From positions 1 through 64,000 of the forward strand of contig JAJDTP010000005.1 in NCBI GenBank assembly GCA_022827095.1: a DNA stretch of 64,000 nt, written 5' to 3'. This DNA comes from Dehalococcoidia bacterium (GTDB taxonomy: Bacteria > Chloroflexota > Dehalococcoidia > Lucifugimonadales > UBA3495). Each line of letters begins with the position of its first letter. Positions within the stretch are counted from its first letter, which is position 1. Below the pieces are notes generated by a model. It searched no databases, was not told the origin of the DNA, and worked only from the letters and a program-made list of their open reading frames with translations. Below are positions 53,739 to 61,909 of the stretch, in pieces. The position numbers and the translations under genes were made by a program.

Positions 53739-54968
53739 CTAGCGAGTGGAAACCGGCAAGTTCAGCAGAGTGCGCTGTCCGACACTGGGCAGGTATTCCA
53801 AGTCCTGCGGGTCGGTTTCCAGTTCGAATCCCTCGAAACGCCGGGCCAGTTCGGCGAAGGCTTCCTGTCCTTCCAGCCGCGCCAGGGTGGCTCCGAGGCA
53901 ATGGTGAACACCGCTGCCGAAGGCAACGTGGGGGTTCGGGTTTCGCGTGATGTCGAGCCCGTCGGGGTCGTCGAAAACCTTGGGGTCTCGGTTGGCTGAC
54001 GAAATCACCCAACGAACGCGGTCGTCCTTGCCCACCTGCTGCCCGTCGCCCATGTCCACGTCTCGCGTCGCTACCCTTTGGATCGACTTCAGCGGGGAGT
54101 CGAACCGGAGCACTTCTTCGACGGCGTTCACGATGTGGGCATCGGGGTCGGTTTTCAGCAGGTCGAACTGGTCCGAGTGTTGGGCGAAGGCCAGCACCCC
54201 GTTGGAAATCAGGTCGTTGGTCGTCTCGTGGCCGGCGACCAGCAGCAACAGGGCATTTGCCAGCACCTCGTCGCGGGTGTAGGCGCCCATGATTTCGCCT
54301 TTGCAGATCACCGACAGCAGGTCATCACCGGGGTCGCGGACCCGCTCGGCCACGATGGGCGCCAGGTAGTCGGTCACCGCCTGAACTCCTTCAGCGTACA
54401 TGCGAACTCGGTCGGGCTGGTTTCCGTCGAACCCGCACATACGGCCGCACAATTCCTTGACGAAATTCCGGTCGCTGGGCGGTATGTCCATCAGGCTGGC
54501 GATGATGCTGTACGTTAGCGGCGTGGCGAAGTCGTGCATCACGTCCATTCGGCCGGCGCCTTGAAGATCGTCCAGCAGGTCGTTCACCGTCTGGCGGACC
54601 AGCGGACGCCAGGTCTCCATGGCCTTTGGCGTGAAGTACCCATGGACAATCTTGCGCTTTTCCTTGTGCTTGGCGCCATCATTCTGGGTGAACTGGGCGG
54701 CCCGCCACTGACGCACCGCGGCGAACAGTTCCATGTCCTCTTCCGGAATAGACGGAGAAGGCGGGGCGTTGTCCCGCAGCGCAACTTCGGAGGAGAAGTA
54801 TTCGGGGTGCCGTGCCGTCCACACCAGCCGTTCGTAGCTGGTCACCACCCACATCCGGTACTGCTCGTTCCAGTGTACCGGCGCTTCCGACCGCAACGCG
54901 CCGAAAAAGCCGTAGGGATCGCGGATGGCCTCGGCGGAGAACAGGTCGTCGTGGATGTTGGCGGGCAT
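53739..54968 (-). CDS. Cytochrome P450, gene 1
   Basis: The 409-residue soluble P450 has the I-helix AGHETT (about 240), the ExxR in EEVLR (about 280), and the heme loop FGSGVHHCLGATLARLE (Cys near 346). It is paired with a ferredoxin gene downstream. It is less similar to the three following P450s than they are to each other. On the minus strand TGTGATAAT forms an extended -10 near 55010. Substrate unknown. Confidence 0.92.
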   Translation of the reverse strand: MPANIHDDLFSAEAIRDPYGFFGALRSEAPVHWNEQYRMWVVTSYERLVWTARHPEYFSSEVALRDNAPPSPSIPEEDMELFAAVRQWRAAQFTQNDGAKHKEKRKIVHGYFTPKAMETWRPLVRQTVNDLLDDLQGAGRMDVMHDFATPLTYSIIASLMDIPPSDRNFVKELCGRMCGFDGNQPDRVRMYAEGVQAVTDYLAPIVAERVRDPGDDLLSVICKGEIMGAYTRDEVLANALLLLVAGHETTNDLISNGVLAFAQHSDQFDLLKTDPDAHIVNAVEEVLRFDSPLKSIQRVATRDVDMGDGQQVGKDDRVRWVISSANRDPKVFDDPDGLDITRNPNPHVAFGSGVHHCLGATLARLEGQEAFAELARRFEGFELETDPQDLEYLPSVGQRTLLNLPVSTR

Positions 54969-55102
54969 GGCGAACCCCTCGATGGGCGGGCGTCGGTGCG
55001 CTCAAAATTATCACAAGCGATGCTACAATTCAAACGGAGCACAGCGCTCTGTCGCGCATCGGTCAGCCGGGCTCCAGTGCTGTCCCGCAAAAGGTGGACA
55101 AT

Positions 55103-55450
55103 ATGGTCAAAGCGTACGTCCAAATCACAATTGAAACCGAAGAAAGAGCTGACCGTTGGGCCTGTCGCTCCCCGGAGCTTGGGTTCATCGTGTACGGCGT
55201 AACCCGCGAAGCGGCCAGGGGCGAGGTGAACAAGGCGGTTACCGCCCTGCTGGCCAGTTTCCACGGGGACATCGAAGCCATCGAGCGTTTTCTCACCAAG
55301 CGCGAGGTGCCTTACTATAGGATTGAGCGTGAGCAACGGGACGAGTCCGACGCGGCGACGCAAACCTCGCCCGAAAACAGCCGCGTCGATACCCCAAGTC
55401 ATGGGGGGACGGAGGCGGAAACGAGCCTGGAGGAGGTATTGATTGCCTAG
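55103..55450 (+). CDS. HicB-like protein
   Basis: A 115-residue protein with the HicB fold pattern (a partial RNase-H-like antitoxin): YVQITIETEERADRWACRSPELGFIVYGVT, REAARGEVNKAVTALL, then a charged disordered tail with no DNA-binding domain visible. ATG 55103 has AAAGGTGG upstream. The TTG start of the HicA-like gene overlaps its end by 8 bp. HicA usually precedes HicB, so the order is reversed here. Confidence 0.65.
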   Translation: MVKAYVQITIETEERADRWACRSPELGFIVYGVTREAARGEVNKAVTALLASFHGDIEAIERFLTKREVPYYRIEREQRDESDAATQTSPENSRVDTPSHGGTEAETSLEEVLIA

Positions 55451-55688
55451 CGGTCGAAACCTCAGTTGGCTAGAAGTTACCGGCATACTCGGCCGGCTCG
55501 ATATCCAGCAAGTGGAGCGCTTCGGAGCATATGCGGTTTATGTGGGCAGCCAGGATGACAGCACAATAACAATTACCACCGACGATTGGGACATACCGTT
55601 TGACGACCTGGCGTTCATTCTGTCCAAGATAGGTATCAGCACGGTTGAGATAGAGGCGGCATTGGAATCTCTCTACAGTGATCACTGA
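55443..55688 (+). CDS. HicA-like small protein without the usual histidine
   Basis: An 81-residue protein starting at TTG with AGGAGGT 5 bp before it. The layout follows HicA (dsRBD-like toxin): LSWLEVTGILGRLDIQQVERFGAYAVYV, TITITTDDWDIPFDDLAFILSKIGIS. HicA toxins use a histidine in the KGSHxxY motif, which here reads RFGAYAVY, so RNA cleavage by the classic mechanism is doubtful. The DIP and L..IL..IGIS parts support the assignment. A terminator follows. Confidence 0.5.
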   Translation: MPSGRNLSWLEVTGILGRLDIQQVERFGAYAVYVGSQDDSTITITTDDWDIPFDDLAFILSKIGISTVEIEAALESLYSDH

Positions 55689-55702
55689 CGGTACGCGGCA
55701 AC

Positions 55703-55744
55703 AAAAGGGCCGGCGGTCATGGGTTCGACCGCCGGCCCTTTTTC
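55703..55744. terminator. Bidirectional terminator
   Basis: AAGGGCCGGCGGTC and GACCGCCGGCCCTT form a 14-bp stem with an 8-base loop. A T-run follows on each strand (TTTTT rightward, TTTT leftward), serving both the HicBA-like genes and P450 gene 2. Confidence 0.88.
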
Positions 55745-55771
55745 CGGCCCGTTATTCTGGAAATGACGATG

Positions 55772-57043
55772 CTAGGCGCTGGTCACCTTCACCGGCAGGC
55801 TCTCCACCGCGCGGAAGGTGAGGACGTGGTCGTACTCGACCTCTTCCACCGGGATCTCAAGCTCGACCTTCTCGAACCGGTTGGCCAGGTTGCGGAATAT
55901 CTCCTGACCCTCCAGACGGGCCAGGGTGGCGCCGAGGCAGTGATGGACCCCGCTGCCAAAGGCGACGTGCTGGTTCGGGTACCGCTCAATGTCAAAGTCA
56001 TCAGCGCGGTCGAAGACCTTGGGGTCGCGGTTGGCGCCCGGAATGAACCAACGGACCCGGTCGTTCTTCTTGATCACCTGGCCGTTCAGCTCGATGTCAT
56101 CCGTCGCGATGCGCTGGATCGACCGGACCGGGGAGTCGTACCGGAGGGCTTCTTCGGTGGCGCGGACGGTCTTCCCTTCCGGATCAGACTTCAGGGTCGC
56201 CCACTGTTCAGGATGCTGGGTGAAAGCCAGCGTGCCGTTGCAGATCAGGTTGATGGTGGTTTCATGTCCGGCAGACAGCAACAGCATGATGTTGTTGACG
56301 GTCATGTCCCGGTTGAACACGCCCTGACGCTCGCCTTCGCAGACTACGGACATCAGGTCAGTGGCGTCGAAATTCTCGGGATTGTTGACCCGGTCCTCCA
56401 CCATCGGCGCTATGAAATCCTGTAGGTTTCGCACCGCCTGGGTCAGCGGCTTCATGCGGTCCGGACCCTCGCGGTTCAGGAAGCGCAGGTCCTTGGCCAG
56501 TTCGCGGAGGCGTTCTCGCTCGCTGTCCGGAATGCCCAGCATCCGCGCGATGACCAGCAGAGGCAGCGGCGTGGCCAAGTCGGCCATCACGTCCATGCGA
56601 CCCTTGGCTTCTACGGCGTCCAGCAGCTCGTCGATGGCCGACTGCACCAGCGGCCGCCACATCTCGATGGACTTCGGGGTGAAGTATCCGTGCATCACCC
56701 GACGCATGTCGATGTGGTCGGGGCCGGAGACGTCCGGGTTGTACCGCTTCTGGTCATGCTGGATGAACCGGGAAACCTGCCACTTCTTGATGAAGTTGTA
56801 GAGCTCCATGTCGTCTTCATCGATGGGCGGGTTGGGCGCGCGGGTGTCCCGGGCGTACACGCTGGAGGAGAACGCCTCGGGATGCCTGGTGACCCACACC
56901 AGATGTTCCCACGAGGTGATCATCCACACCTCGAACTGCTCGTTGTAATAGACCGGCTCGTGCTCTCTCAGCCGATTGTAAAAGTCGTACGGCTTGTAGA
57001 TTGCTTCCGGCGAGAACGGATTGTCGTTGAAGGTGCTGACCAT
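55772..57043 (-). CDS. Cytochrome P450, gene 2
   Basis: The 423-residue P450 is highly similar to gene 3 over its whole length. I-helix SAGHETTINLI, ExxR in EEALRYDSPV, heme loop FGSGVHHCLGATLARLEGQE. Shared unusual stretches include NPPIDEDDMELYNFIKKWQ and RRVMHGYFTPK. A GGAGGT ribosome site precedes the ATG. A TATAAT box lies on the minus strand at 57114-57119. It has its own terminator. Substrate unknown. Confidence 0.93.
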   Translation of the reverse strand: MVSTFNDNPFSPEAIYKPYDFYNRLREHEPVYYNEQFEVWMITSWEHLVWVTRHPEAFSSSVYARDTRAPNPPIDEDDMELYNFIKKWQVSRFIQHDQKRYNPDVSGPDHIDMRRVMHGYFTPKSIEMWRPLVQSAIDELLDAVEAKGRMDVMADLATPLPLLVIARMLGIPDSERERLRELAKDLRFLNREGPDRMKPLTQAVRNLQDFIAPMVEDRVNNPENFDATDLMSVVCEGERQGVFNRDMTVNNIMLLLSAGHETTINLICNGTLAFTQHPEQWATLKSDPEGKTVRATEEALRYDSPVRSIQRIATDDIELNGQVIKKNDRVRWFIPGANRDPKVFDRADDFDIERYPNQHVAFGSGVHHCLGATLARLEGQEIFRNLANRFEKVELEIPVEEVEYDHVLTFRAVESLPVKVTSA

Positions 57044-57193
57044 TGGTTGATACCTCCGGTGGTACGTTACTGCGGCTGCCGGCGGGGTGCCGGCAATCCT
57101 TGTTGATGGGCGGATTATAACCGATTATCGCTGCAAGCGCAGATATCCAGAGCGCTTTCCGCCAAACATGGCGGTTCCGACTGGGGCGCCGAA

Positions 57194-57227
57194 TGAAAGC
57201 AGGGGCGGGAGAATTTCCCGCCCCTGC
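57194..57227 (-). terminator. Terminator of P450 gene 3
   Basis: GCAGGGGCGGGA and TCCCGCCCCTGC form a 12-bp stem (57199-57227); read leftward it is followed by TTTCATT. Confidence 0.8.
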
Positions 57228-57255
57228 GCGTTACGGCGATATGGTTCCGCGGCGG

Positions 57256-58515
57256 TTATGCGTTGGTCACCGTCACCGGCAGAGCTTCCAGCGCGCGCAG
57301 GCCGATGAGCTGGTCGTATTCCAGCGTCTCGGCCGGAACTTCCAGCTCGAGGCTCTCGAACCGGTTGGCCAGGTTGCGGAAGATCTCCTGTCCTTCCAGC
57401 CGCGCCAGGGTGGCGCCCAGGCAGTGGTGGATGCCGCTGCCGAAGGCCACGTGCATGTTGGGATAGCGTTCGACATCGAAGTCGTCCGCCCGGTCGAACA
57501 CCTTGGGGTCCCGGTTCGCGCCGGAGATGAACCACCGCACCCGGTCGTTCTTCTTGACGTGCTGCCCGTTCAGCTCCATGTCCTCCATGGCGATGCGCTG
57601 GATGGACTTCACCGGCGAGTCGTAGCGCAGGGCCTCCTCGGTGGCGCGCACCGTCTTGCCCTCCGGGTCCGACTTGAGGATCGCCCACTGGTCGGGATGC
57701 TGGGTGAACGCCAGGGTGCCGTTGCAGATGAGGTTGATGGTGGTTTCGTGGCCGGCCGACAGCAGCAGCATCACATTGTTGACCACCATGTCGCGGTCGA
57801 AGATGCCCTTCCGCGCGCCCTCGGCGACCACCGAAATCAGGTCGTCCTTGGGACTGGCGATGCGTTCGTCGACCAGCGGGCCGAGGTAGTCCTGGAGGTT
57901 CTGCACCGACTCCGAAAGCGGGCCCATGCGGTCCGGCCCGGTCCGGTTCAGGTGGCGCAGGTCCTTGGCCAGCCGGCGCATGATGGGTCGGTCGCTGTCC
58001 GGGATGCCGAGCATCCGGGCGATCACCAGCAGGGGGAGCGGCGTGGCCAGGTCGGCCATCACGTCCATGCGTCCCTTTTCCTGCACCGCGTCCAGAAGCT
58101 CATCGATGGCGGACTGAACCAGGGGCCGCCACATCTCCATGGACTTCGGCGTGAAGTAGCCGTGCATCACGCGCCGCATGTCCACGTGGTCAGGCCCGCT
58201 GACCTCGGGGTTATAGCGCCTCTGGTCGTGCTGGATGAATCGGGAGACCTGCCACTTCTTGATGTAGTTGTAGATCTCCATGTCGTCTTCGTCGATAGGC
58301 GGGTTCGGCGGCCGGACGTCCCGGGCAAACACGCTGGACGAAAAGACCTCGGGATGTCGGGTTACCCATACTAGGTGCTCCCAGTCGGTGACCATCCAGA
58401 CTTCGTACTGCTCGTTGTAGTGCACCGGCTCCCACTCGCGCAGCCGCGCGAAAAATTCGTAGGGTTGGTACATCGCTTCCAGGGAGAATGGGTTGTCGTT
58501 GATCGTGCTAACCAT
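57256..58515 (-). CDS. Cytochrome P450, gene 3
   Basis: A 419-residue P450 nearly parallel to gene 2: same MVST.NDNPFS start, GRMDVMADLATPLPLLVIAR, AGHETTINLICNGTLAFTQH, heme loop FGSGIHHCLGATLARLEGQE. These two are clearly a recent tandem duplication. The ribosome site GGAGGT precedes the ATG. A promoter (58588-58616) and a terminator bracket it as a single-gene unit. Substrate unknown. Confidence 0.93.
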   Translation of the reverse strand: MVSTINDNPFSLEAMYQPYEFFARLREWEPVHYNEQYEVWMVTDWEHLVWVTRHPEVFSSSVFARDVRPPNPPIDEDDMEIYNYIKKWQVSRFIQHDQRRYNPEVSGPDHVDMRRVMHGYFTPKSMEMWRPLVQSAIDELLDAVQEKGRMDVMADLATPLPLLVIARMLGIPDSDRPIMRRLAKDLRHLNRTGPDRMGPLSESVQNLQDYLGPLVDERIASPKDDLISVVAEGARKGIFDRDMVVNNVMLLLSAGHETTINLICNGTLAFTQHPDQWAILKSDPEGKTVRATEEALRYDSPVKSIQRIAMEDMELNGQHVKKNDRVRWFISGANRDPKVFDRADDFDVERYPNMHVAFGSGIHHCLGATLARLEGQEIFRNLANRFESLELEVPAETLEYDQLIGLRALEALPVTVTNA

Positions 58516-58587
58516 TTCCTGCGACCTCCGGTGTGCGACACGCGATTTGCCGACGAAATACGCAGCAAAAGCTGCGATGATGCGGCG

Positions 58588-58616
58588 ATTATATGCTCGC
58601 CAGGCCTTGTGCGCAA
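58588..58616 (-). promoter_or_regulatory. Promoter of P450 gene 3
   Basis: On the minus strand TTGCGC (58611-58616), 17 bp, TATAAT (58588-58593), ~70 bases before the start codon. Confidence 0.65.
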
Positions 58617-58620
58617 GCGA

Positions 58621-58655
58621 TAAAAGCTGAGGCCCGGCGAATGCTCGCCGGGCCT
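58621..58655 (-). terminator. Terminator of P450 gene 4
   Basis: AGGCCCGGCGA and TCGCCGGGCCT form an 11-bp stem with a 4-base loop; read leftward it is followed by CAGCTTTTATC. It lies just upstream of the promoter for gene 3. Confidence 0.8.
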
Positions 58656-58683
58656 CGTAACCCTGCGGGGAAATGTGGACCGA

Positions 58684-59970
58684 TTACGACAGGTTCACCG
58701 GCAGCGTCTCCAGCGTCCGGAATGTGATGCTGGAAGTGTAGGTGAGGTCGTCCGGGTCGCAGTTCATGTTGAGGTTGGGGAACCGCTCAGCCAGGGCCTT
58801 GAAAGCTTCCTGTCCTTCCAGCCGGGCCAGCGTGGCGCCCAGGCAGTGGTGAATGCCGCTGCCGAAGGCCACGTGGGGGTTCGGGTACCGCTCGACGTCG
58901 AAGTCGTCGGGGCGGTCGAACACCTCGGGGTCGCGGTTGGCGGAGGTCACGAACCAGCGCATTCGCTCGTCCTTCTGGATGAGCTTGCCGCCCAGCTCAA
59001 CGTCCTCGCCGGCGATGCGGGTGATGGACTTGACCGGGGCGTCGTAACGCAAGCACTCCTCGGTGGCGCGGATCATCTTGCCGGCGGGATCGGTCTTGAA
59101 CAGTTCCCACTGGTCGGGATGGGTCATGAATGCCCGAGTGCCGTTGCAGATCAGGTTGATGGTGGTCTCGTGACCGGCCAGGAGCAACAGGATCGCGTTG
59201 GCGACCACTTGCTCTTCGTCCATGATCCGCTGGCCGGCCGCGTTAGTCGTCCGCGCAGCATCGGTCATCTTGTCCAACAGGTCGCCGTTGGGGTTGTCCA
59301 GACGGGCTTTGACCATCGGCCGCAGGTAATCCTGAAGCTCGGTGATGCCCTCGGACAGCGGCTGCATCCGGTCGGCGTTGCCGCGGCCGATAAACAGCAG
59401 CTTCTCGGCCAGCGAGCGGATGAACTGCCGGTCGTAGGTCTCAATGCCCATCATGGCAGCGATGACCAGCAGAGGCAGCGGGGTGGCGTAGTCGCGCATG
59501 ACGTCCATGCTGCCGCGCTCTTCAGCCTCGTCCAGCAACTGCTTGATGGCCGACTGCACCAGCGGGCGCCAGAGTTCCATGGCCTTCGGCGTGAAGTAGC
59601 CGTGAATGACCTTCCGCATGTCGGTGTGGTCCGGGCCACCGTGCTCGCGAATGTGCTCGTGGGTGCTCACCGCGCGCCGGTCGGTCTGGATGAACCACTG
59701 GCTGAAGAAGTTCCGCACATCCTCATAAAGGCCCATGTCGGATTCGTCGATCGAAGGGTACGGAGGCAGCGGGTCCCGGTGGAACACCTCGGACGAAAAC
59801 GCCTCGGGGCGTCGCGTGACCCAGACCAAGTCCTTGTACTTGGTAATGACCCACAACTTGTAGGGGGCGTTCCAGTGGACGGGGTCCTCCTCGCGCATCC
59901 GGCCGAAATACGTATACGGATCCTGGATGACTTCAGGGGAAAACAGGTTTTCATTAAAGGTGGTAACCAT
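58684..59970 (-). CDS. Cytochrome P450, gene 4
   Basis: A 428-residue P450 in the same subfamily as genes 2 and 3 but more distant: MVTTFNENLFS start, VIHGYFTPKAMELWRPL, AGHETTINLICNG, EECLRYDAPV (ExxR), heme loop FGSGIHHCLGATLARLEGQE. The ribosome site is GGGAGGG. It is transcribed from the promoter at 60054-60082. Substrate unknown. Confidence 0.93.
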   Translation of the reverse strand: MVTTFNENLFSPEVIQDPYTYFGRMREEDPVHWNAPYKLWVITKYKDLVWVTRRPEAFSSEVFHRDPLPPYPSIDESDMGLYEDVRNFFSQWFIQTDRRAVSTHEHIREHGGPDHTDMRKVIHGYFTPKAMELWRPLVQSAIKQLLDEAEERGSMDVMRDYATPLPLLVIAAMMGIETYDRQFIRSLAEKLLFIGRGNADRMQPLSEGITELQDYLRPMVKARLDNPNGDLLDKMTDAARTTNAAGQRIMDEEQVVANAILLLLAGHETTINLICNGTRAFMTHPDQWELFKTDPAGKMIRATEECLRYDAPVKSITRIAGEDVELGGKLIQKDERMRWFVTSANRDPEVFDRPDDFDVERYPNPHVAFGSGIHHCLGATLARLEGQEAFKALAERFPNLNMNCDPDDLTYTSSITFRTLETLPVNLS

Positions 59971-60302: not shown

Positions 60303-60546
60303 AAACTGGGTACACTTCAGCTTGCACGCGCCGGAAAGGCGCCGATGGCCGGGGTGATCGAAGGGTGGAGTGGATGATACATTTGGCATCCATACTCTGT
60401 TCCTGTAGGCCCTGTGGCGAAGTCGTTCTGAGGCTCCCCGCTTGCTTTGCCTGAGCCCGACTGTGCTACAATCCGGCCACGAACCAGGTGAACCGGGGGT
60501 AACAACCCGGAACCAACGGTCAACCAAATCCAGGGAGGTCCAAATC

Positions 60547-61179
60547 ATGGCTGAATCCGACTTCACCGTTTATTACGACTTTCGTTGACCCTTCGTGTAC
60601 AACGCTGCCATGTGGTGGGCGAAAGTACGCGAGAATACCGACCACGCAATCGACGTGGATCTGAAGCCATTCTCGCTGGTCCAGGTAAATCACGACAACA
60701 ACAACGACGACGGCTTCAAATACTGGGAGCAGGACGACTCGGACAACACCTTGCTCGAGCTTCGCGCCGGTATCGCCGCTCAGCGCCAGGGCGAGGAGAT
60801 CTTCGATCGCTTCTTCATCAACCTGCTGCGGGCCCGGCATGAAGATCGCATCGACCTGACCGACGCGGACGCCATCAACGCCGTGGCCGAGGCATCCGGG
60901 GTCGACATGGGCCAGTTCGCCGAAGACCTGGCCGACCCCGAAGTCCTGAAGGAGATCGGCGAGAGCCACACCGAGGCAGTGGAAGTACATGGCGCCTTCG
61001 GCGTGCCTCTCTATGTCTTCCCCAACGGCAACTCCGCCTTCGTGAAGATGTTCATTCCGTCCGACGACGAGTCGGGACCCATCTACGACAACCTGGTCGA
61101 GATGATGGCTGACCACAAGCACGTCGGCGAGGTGAAGCGCCCGTCCCCGCCGTGGCCCTATGAGGGTGTGCGCGGGTAA
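60547..61179 (+). CDS. DsbA/thioredoxin-fold protein, candidate selenoprotein (in-frame TGA at 60586-60588)
   Basis: ATG 60547 has an excellent ribosome site (GGGAGGT, 7 bp upstream). After 13 codons (MAESDFTVYYDFR) comes TGA, then the same frame continues 196 codons to TAA: PFVYNAAMWWAKV at the top, GVPLYVFPNG as the cis-Pro loop near the end. In the DsbA-like family (including FrnE and mycothiol-dependent nitroreductase types) the start reads strand-DF-x-C-P-x-x-Y, so TGA falls exactly on the catalytic cysteine. If read as selenocysteine (residue 14) the product has 210 residues. A stem-loop at 60592-60623 fits a bacterial SECIS. The alternatives, restart at GTG 60595 or a nonsense mutation, lack support from a ribosome site or from decay of the remaining frame. 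selA, selB, selD and selC are not in the window. Confidence 0.75.
60592..60623 (+). promoter_or_regulatory. Candidate SECIS element downstream of the TGA
   Basis: The lower stem is TTCG/CGAA (60592-60595 with 60620-60623), then pairs T-G, T-G, A-T and C-G with a G/G mismatch. A bulge follows, then the apical stem CGC/GTG (60603-60605 with 60612-60614, one G-U pair). The loop is TGCCAT (60606-60611) with G in the second position, starting 18 bases after the TGA. Bacterial SECIS elements lie in this range and carry G in the first two loop positions. Folded by eye only. Confidence 0.5.
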
Positions 61180-61909
61180 ACGCGCCCCACATCAAGTGAG
61201 TTCGCCCGGCGCACATCGCCCGGTCGCCGAACTGGAACAAGCCCTGGGCCTGAGCTTTCGGGACCGGGGTTTGCTCATGCAGGCGCTGACGCACCGCTCA
61301 TACGTTAATGAGACCGGGGGTTCGGACACCGATTCGTACGAACGTCTCGAGTTCCTCGGCGACGTTGTGGTTCGGCTCATCGTGAGCGAGGAGCTGTACC
61401 GCCGCCTGCCGGAGTGCGACGAGGGCGGCCTGACCCGACGCTGGACAGCCCTGCTGAGCCAGCGCGCCCTGGCCGCCGCGGCGCGGGACCTGGGCTTCGC
61501 GGAGTTCGTTCTGGTGGGGCGTGGGTTCGAGGCTTCGGGGGGGCGTAACGGAGACGCCGTGCTGGGCGACGTCATGGAATCGGTGATCGCCGCGATTTAC
61601 CTGGACCAGGGGAACCGGGCCGCTCGCGATTTCGTCCTGTCGGCTCTATCCGGGCCCGTGGCCGCGGCGTGCCAACCTGATTGGCGGCCCGACAACCCCA
61701 AGGCGGAACTCCAGGAACTTCTCCAGGGTCAGGGCAGGCCCACCCCCGTCTATCGAGTGGTTGCGTCTTCGGGCCCCTCCCACCAACCAAACTTCCACGT
61801 CGAGGTCGCTACCGGAGAAGAGGTCCTGGGATCCGGAACGGGGTCGAGCAAAAACGCTGGGGAGGTCGCCGCCGCCCGCGCCGCCCTTGCCGTGTTGTCA
61901 CCTGGCTGA
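61160..61909 (+). CDS. rnc: Ribonuclease III
   Basis: The 249-residue double-strand-specific RNase has the signature SYERLEFLGD (catalytic Glu and Asp), a second acidic pair in GDVMESVIAAIYLDQG, and a C-terminal double-strand RNA-binding domain (NPKAELQELLQGQG, AGEVAAARAALAVL). ATG 61160 overlaps the end of the selenoprotein gene; GTG 61196 is an alternative and would give a more typical start (SSPGAHRPVAELEQALG). Neither has a clear ribosome site, consistent with coupling to the upstream gene. Confidence 0.9.
   Translation: MRVCAGKRAPHQVSSPGAHRPVAELEQALGLSFRDRGLLMQALTHRSYVNETGGSDTDSYERLEFLGDVVVRLIVSEELYRRLPECDEGGLTRRWTALLSQRALAAAARDLGFAEFVLVGRGFEASGGRNGDAVLGDVMESVIAAIYLDQGNRAARDFVLSALSGPVAAACQPDWRPDNPKAELQELLQGQGRPTPVYRVVASSGPSHQPNFHVEVATGEEVLGSGTGSSKNAGEVAAARAALAVLSPG

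Follow-up and report, generated by a model that had tools for sequence, protein, structure and literature searches.

The gene and its in-frame TGA

In the window, i.e. the whole stretch of 64,000 nucleotides that was analysed, a predicted selenoprotein gene is directly followed on the same strand by rnc, the gene for RNase III. The locus comprises the following features:

60534 to 60539, plus strand: Shine-Dalgarno sequence GGAGGT of the predicted selenoprotein gene, read from the sequence, with a similar motif in nearly all homologues.
60547 to 61179, plus strand: predicted selenoprotein gene for a DSBA-like thioredoxin-fold protein, based on frame, profile match, conservation and predicted structure.
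60586 to 60588, plus strand: in-frame TGA, predicted to be read as selenocysteine (Sec) 14 in the motif DFRUPFVY; the codon is TGA in homologues, or else TGT.
60592 to 60633, plus strand: bacterial SECIS-like element, an apical hairpin at 60603-60621, with its loop at 60610-60613, that tops a longer stem, predicted from folding, synonymous permutations and covariation.
61160 to 61909, plus strand: rnc (RNase III), an open reading frame overlapping the end of the selenoprotein gene, with no Shine-Dalgarno site seen; downstream in 97 of 98 SAR202 loci.

The frame begins with the ATG at 60547-60549, runs through 13 codons to the TGA and is then open to the TAA stop at 61177-61179. When the TGA is read through, the product has 210 residues, Sec at residue 14 and not a single cysteine. 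An earlier note on this DNA had described the ribosome site, the ATG, the 13 codons, the TGA in the context DFR-TGA-PFVY and the intact frame behind it, all of which are present in the sequence. No hydrophobic leader or signal peptide was recognized by eye, and the ATG lies only 13 codons before Sec14. A Shine-Dalgarno motif was found upstream of the gene in 65 of 70 loci. Within the genus, pN/pS was 0.20 for the codons 5' of the TGA and 0.08 for those 3' of it, and selection is purifying on both flanks.

Conservation of the TGA and exchange with cysteine

All 14 genomes of the genus carry one TGA at exactly codon 14. A close homologue is present in 48 of 60 related genomes, with a single in-frame TGA in 47 of them and Cys in one (G043). 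When named genomes were scanned, the best 80 loci, which belonged without exception to SAR202 or to other Dehalococcoidia/Chloroflexota, had TGA at the codon in 77 cases and TGT (Cys) in three, the codon of locus L136 being read by eye from the translation; homologues with Cys at this position, which the earlier note had suggested looking for, thus exist. A phylum-wide draw yielded a relative in 112 of 400 Chloroflexota, and classes other than the Dehalococcoidia mix TGA and Cys forms. Cys is the sole alternative residue at codon 14 among the homologues. In a tree calculated with the codon column masked (118 rows, of which 101 have Sec and 17 have Cys, certain genomes being represented twice), at least eight changes, counted in either direction, are required, five of which are forced by well-supported branches.

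The possibility that the Cys form arose from a loss of the Sec machinery was rejected, as the Cys-form genomes tested still carry SelA. The loci L147, L148, L153 and L072 are natural Cys versions that lack the hairpin after the codon, while SelA is kept in their genomes. In another locus, L168 (G437:C1:363169-363786), the matched stretch contains TGA twice in frame; the second TGA appears to be an ordinary stop after a KRPVPPAH tail. More distant DSBA-like genes of Chloroflexota with one in-frame TGA, among others in G387, G206, G142, G115 and G133, possibly belong to other selenoprotein families.

A nonsense mutation, be it real in a pseudogene or a sequencing error, would agree with a single in-frame stop in an otherwise intact frame, but it is virtually out of the question given that genomes assembled independently of each other, and encoding proteins of 34-98% identity, have TGA at the same codon, and that purifying selection persists downstream of it. 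Translation might also restart after the UGA at the GTG at 60595, giving a product of 194 aa without the active-site residue. This frame is contained in the list of open reading frames, and its GTG might be taken as the start by standard gene-calling software. However, the Shine-Dalgarno sequence precedes the upstream ATG, none is found before GTG 60595, and the first strand together with the U-P dipeptide is strongly conserved and under purifying selection, which makes a restart extremely improbable.

Selenocysteine machinery of the host

The assembly of the host genome comprises 3.79 Mb in 35 contigs and is 97.65% complete. It encodes SelA (438 bits), SelB (355 bits, over the cut-off), SelD (376 bits) and a tRNA-Sec with the anticodon UCA (66.4 bits against a gathering threshold of 47), and thereby all four components for which the earlier note had proposed a search. 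The selD gene (L021, G000:C20:25694-26614, minus strand) has an in-frame TGA of its own in the motif HCAGUAAK, which we take to be the catalytic site of SelD (HCAG-U-AAK), and the selenophosphate synthetase of the host is probably a selenoprotein itself. The expectation of the earlier note that Sec decoding would be notable in this lineage was not borne out: SelA is over the cut-off in 55 of the 60 relatives, SelA and SelB have been noted before in sponge-symbiont bins (PMC5649159), and Sec decoding is the norm in the lineage.

The SECIS-like hairpin

The loop of the predicted hairpin in the window (AUGU) starts 21 nt past the UGA, a spacing within the limits known from bacterial SECIS elements, and the extended stem has a calculated MFE of -18.4 kcal/mol over 48 nt. 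The stem-loop described in the earlier note is present. Its tip can be read in two ways, one of them being the six-base loop of that note; the folding program predicts a loop of four bases with C-G closing pairs.

Across the family, the 30-nt segment +13 to +42 (numbering from the T in TGA) folds better in Sec genes than in synonymous-codon permutations (mean z -2.0, 78 sequences), as compared with mean z values of -0.3 to +0.3 in six other segments of the gene. At the same position, the hairpin is near-absent in four Cys homologues (MFE -0.8 to -2.9, z -0.6 to +1.2). Covariation among 66 distinct sequences points in the same direction: 93.3% of the cells of the five-pair stem are paired versus 16-63% in slid registers, and 15 cells are changed on both sides versus 2.7 in shuffles. 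Its pair 22-31, for example, is G-C in 52 sequences, A-U in eight, G-U in five and something else in one. Within the genus of the window, folding of the short 30-nt hairpin does not exceed that of synonymous permutations (z about 0) and the extended stem is marginally stronger than permutations (in the window, z is about -1.9 and p about 0.06), and the case for a SECIS element therefore rests on the whole family.

Given that the inserted residue cannot be told from sequence, the UGA could in principle be read as another amino acid, either by near-cognate read-through or in a reassigned code. We regard this as highly unlikely, since Cys is the only other residue found at the codon, the genome holds a full set of Sec genes, TGA also serves as a gene end within the family (L066), and the hairpin is confined to TGA genes. 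The UGA at codon 14 thus almost certainly encodes selenocysteine, and the protein very probably contains selenium. The core claim of the earlier note, that a DsbA-fold protein has Sec in place of its catalytic Cys, is supported by the Sec machinery, the Cys homologues and the SECIS-like hairpin.

Fold and active site of the protein

The read-through protein was identified as DSBA (Pfam PF01323; E 8.8e-16, 58.7 bits versus a cut-off of 25.6), a family matched by all 28 of 28 members examined, of which 20 also match the Rv2466c-like family PF22234. Among the models of NCBIfam, none is matched by the window protein. AlphaFold2, run on the 28-member alignment, predicted the structure with a pLDDT of 91.9. 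Among solved structures, DR2335 from Deinococcus, with its single Cys at the position of Sec14, matched best (Z 22.6, aligned over 194 residues), followed by Rv2466c (Z 17.6), YjbH (16.0), the kappa-class glutathione transferase GSTK1 (15.5) and HCCA isomerase (14.4-14.6). Invariant positions are, among others, Sec14 (with Cys in one row), Pro15, an FGxP loop and a C-terminal E-K-P-P-WP tail. We group the gene, as a Sec representative, with the DsbA-like proteins of the single-thiol DR2335 type. Judged by its deduced sequence, in which the CxxC motif is absent, the protein is not a classical DsbA, nor does it belong to the CxxC enzymes of the Rv2466c type.

Sec14 is the only redox residue of the predicted thioredoxin-fold enzyme. 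As the protein has no cysteine, its chemistry must use the single selenol, and a single-selenol cycle would be the simplest mechanism. According to this model, translation would begin at ATG 60547, and SelB, the Sec-tRNA(UCA) and the downstream hairpin would insert selenocysteine at UGA 60586. Sec14 would form the N-terminal residue of the active-site helix of the thioredoxin fold and attack an oxidised thiol, a mixed disulfide, a peroxide or a similar substrate. Sec14 and a small thiol would then be joined in a selenenyl-sulfide, to be released by a second thiol or by thioredoxin. Such a cycle would correspond to the monothiol mode of the Rv2466c-type relative NCgl2478, and by this analogy the selenoprotein probably acts like a monothiol reductase. 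Considered separately, single-selenol reductase chemistry appears to us the likelier course, though with distinctly less confidence than the presence of selenium.

The most serious competitor is a role of Sec14 in transferase or isomerase chemistry instead of disulfide chemistry, since kappa-class GST and HCCA isomerase share the fold. Both align well with the predicted structure, and the presence of one redox residue only would also be compatible with such a function. However, DR2335 and Rv2466c, which have Cys at the place of Sec14, score higher, whereas kappa-class GST and HCCA isomerase have Ser at the active position and use glutathione. Of the enzymes of glutathione synthesis, the search covered the glutathione synthetase GshB, which was not found in 59 of the 60 relatives. 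Taken together, we consider a transferase or isomerase role a minor possibility, well behind reductase chemistry.

With respect to other small thiols that could serve as partner, BshC was not found in any of the 60 relatives. The MshC model had matches in 59 of 60 genomes, all below the cut-off, and is also matched by the related cysteinyl-tRNA synthetase (CysRS). The MshC/CysRS-like match at G000:C11:294762-295907, as in most SAR202 relatives, lies in an open frame of about 740-780 residues that may encode an unusual cysteinyl-tRNA synthetase.

The best overall explanation of the locus, to which we assign a probability of roughly 0.85, is a cytosolic selenoprotein with Sec14 inserted at the UGA and with one-selenol chemistry.

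Comparison with known proteins

DR_2335 (PDB 7dk9, 7dka), for which no function has been reported (PMC8945050), resembles the window protein in fold and length, in sequence (phmmer E 4.3e-16) and in the shared motifs FSLxQ, RQG, HED and FGxP. Its one catalytic Cys, within DFLCPYAW, occupies the place of Sec14, so that the two differ in having Cys there and Sec here. Rv2466c and NCgl2478, mycothiol-dependent DsbA-Mrx1 reductases of PF22234, share the fold and probably the monothiol mode, and a C24S variant of NCgl2478, from which the resolving Cys is removed, still reduces mixed disulfides (PMC8280269). In contrast to the U-P-F-V motif of the Cys-free window protein, these enzymes carry CP(W/F)C, including a resolving Cys, and classical periplasmic DsbA has CxxC with a resolving Cys and a signal peptide. 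The thioredoxin-like (seleno)lipoproteins of the Rcas_1661 family (NF041057) are matched weakly by seven of the 28 members (best E 6.8e-7), but are named lipoproteins, while the window protein has no NCBIfam match.

The earlier note had considered Sec in this protein family notable as well. DsbA-like selenoproteins are, however, an already catalogued kind (PMC2398784, PMC13188914). An ocean survey from 2008 lists "DsbA 3" (pfam01323, UxxV) with five Global Ocean Sampling reads, and its main text gives no lineage, function or neighbourhood (PMC2398784). The Pfam family and the motif type, U-P-F-V being a UxxV motif, agree in a comparison by motif, according to which "DsbA 3" may be the same family as the window gene. 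A review from 2026 lists a "DsbA-like protein form 2" (PF01323, DxxUP), citing Peng 2016 (PMC13188914). D-F-R-U-P fits this motif, by which alone the two were compared, but the entry describes form 2 as a crotonase/enoyl-CoA hydratase family protein (PMC13188914). Set beside these catalogued DsbA forms by motif only, what is new here is the near-universality in SAR202, the Cys-free site with a single Sec, and the linkage to an rnc that mostly lacks a Shine-Dalgarno motif. No paper was found in the literature on SAR202 selenoproteins.

Genomic neighbourhood

On the minus strand of the window, positions 53739-59970 hold four cytochrome P450-like open reading frames in tandem with a ferredoxin-like one at the 3' end. 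The earlier note had taken the P450 group as a hint at a redox role. P450 genes are near the selenoprotein gene in 4 of 13 loci of this one genus and in zero other loci examined, and the P450 link was therefore dropped as a clue to function.

The position of rnc is far more constant. In 97 of 98 SAR202 loci (the exception being L068), Cys-form loci included, rnc is the next gene after the selenoprotein gene and lies on its strand, with some genomes counted twice and rnc located by tblastn. Clustering of neighbours had missed the gene in 12 loci, mostly where long antisense open reading frames displaced it in GC-rich DNA, which was corrected by tblastn. Among 20 loci fetched in a phylum-wide search, by contrast, rnc adjacency was seen in only one, L180, which belongs to the same taxonomic order.

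In most loci, the start of rnc lies among the final codons of the selenoprotein gene or at most 30 nt past its stop. A Shine-Dalgarno motif at the candidate rnc start was present in 6 of the same 70 loci in which 65 had one before the selenoprotein gene. A wider count near candidate starts gave 7/76 for rnc, 28/33 for a quinone oxidoreductase gene, 12/14 for glnA and 22/53 for ftsY. Two other genes of these loci had the motif in 0/9 and 0/13 cases, so that non-rnc genes range from 0 to 86% and the lack in rnc is suggestive only. Given its start in or just after the selenoprotein gene, mostly without a Shine-Dalgarno motif, rnc may depend on ribosomes that have passed the UGA. Translational coupling of rnc to the selenoprotein gene is plausible from this arrangement. 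The further-reaching idea that Sec decoding would gate RNase III synthesis, with rnc being translated mainly by ribosomes passing the UGA, is rather improbable.

Implications

Both the deep ocean and sponges harbour abundant SAR202 bacteria. The host is a marine SAR202 bacterium, and the predicted selenoprotein is common to most SAR202. Standard annotation probably truncates or misses the gene, and no NCBIfam model covers the family in the genus. Close relatives supply natural Sec/Cys pairs, which are useful for asking why Sec is retained. Furthermore, the fixed linkage to rnc makes a connection between selenium and RNA processing open to direct test. If Sec decoding did gate rnc, the supply of selenium or the redox supply would set the level of RNase III, a global RNA-processing enzyme.
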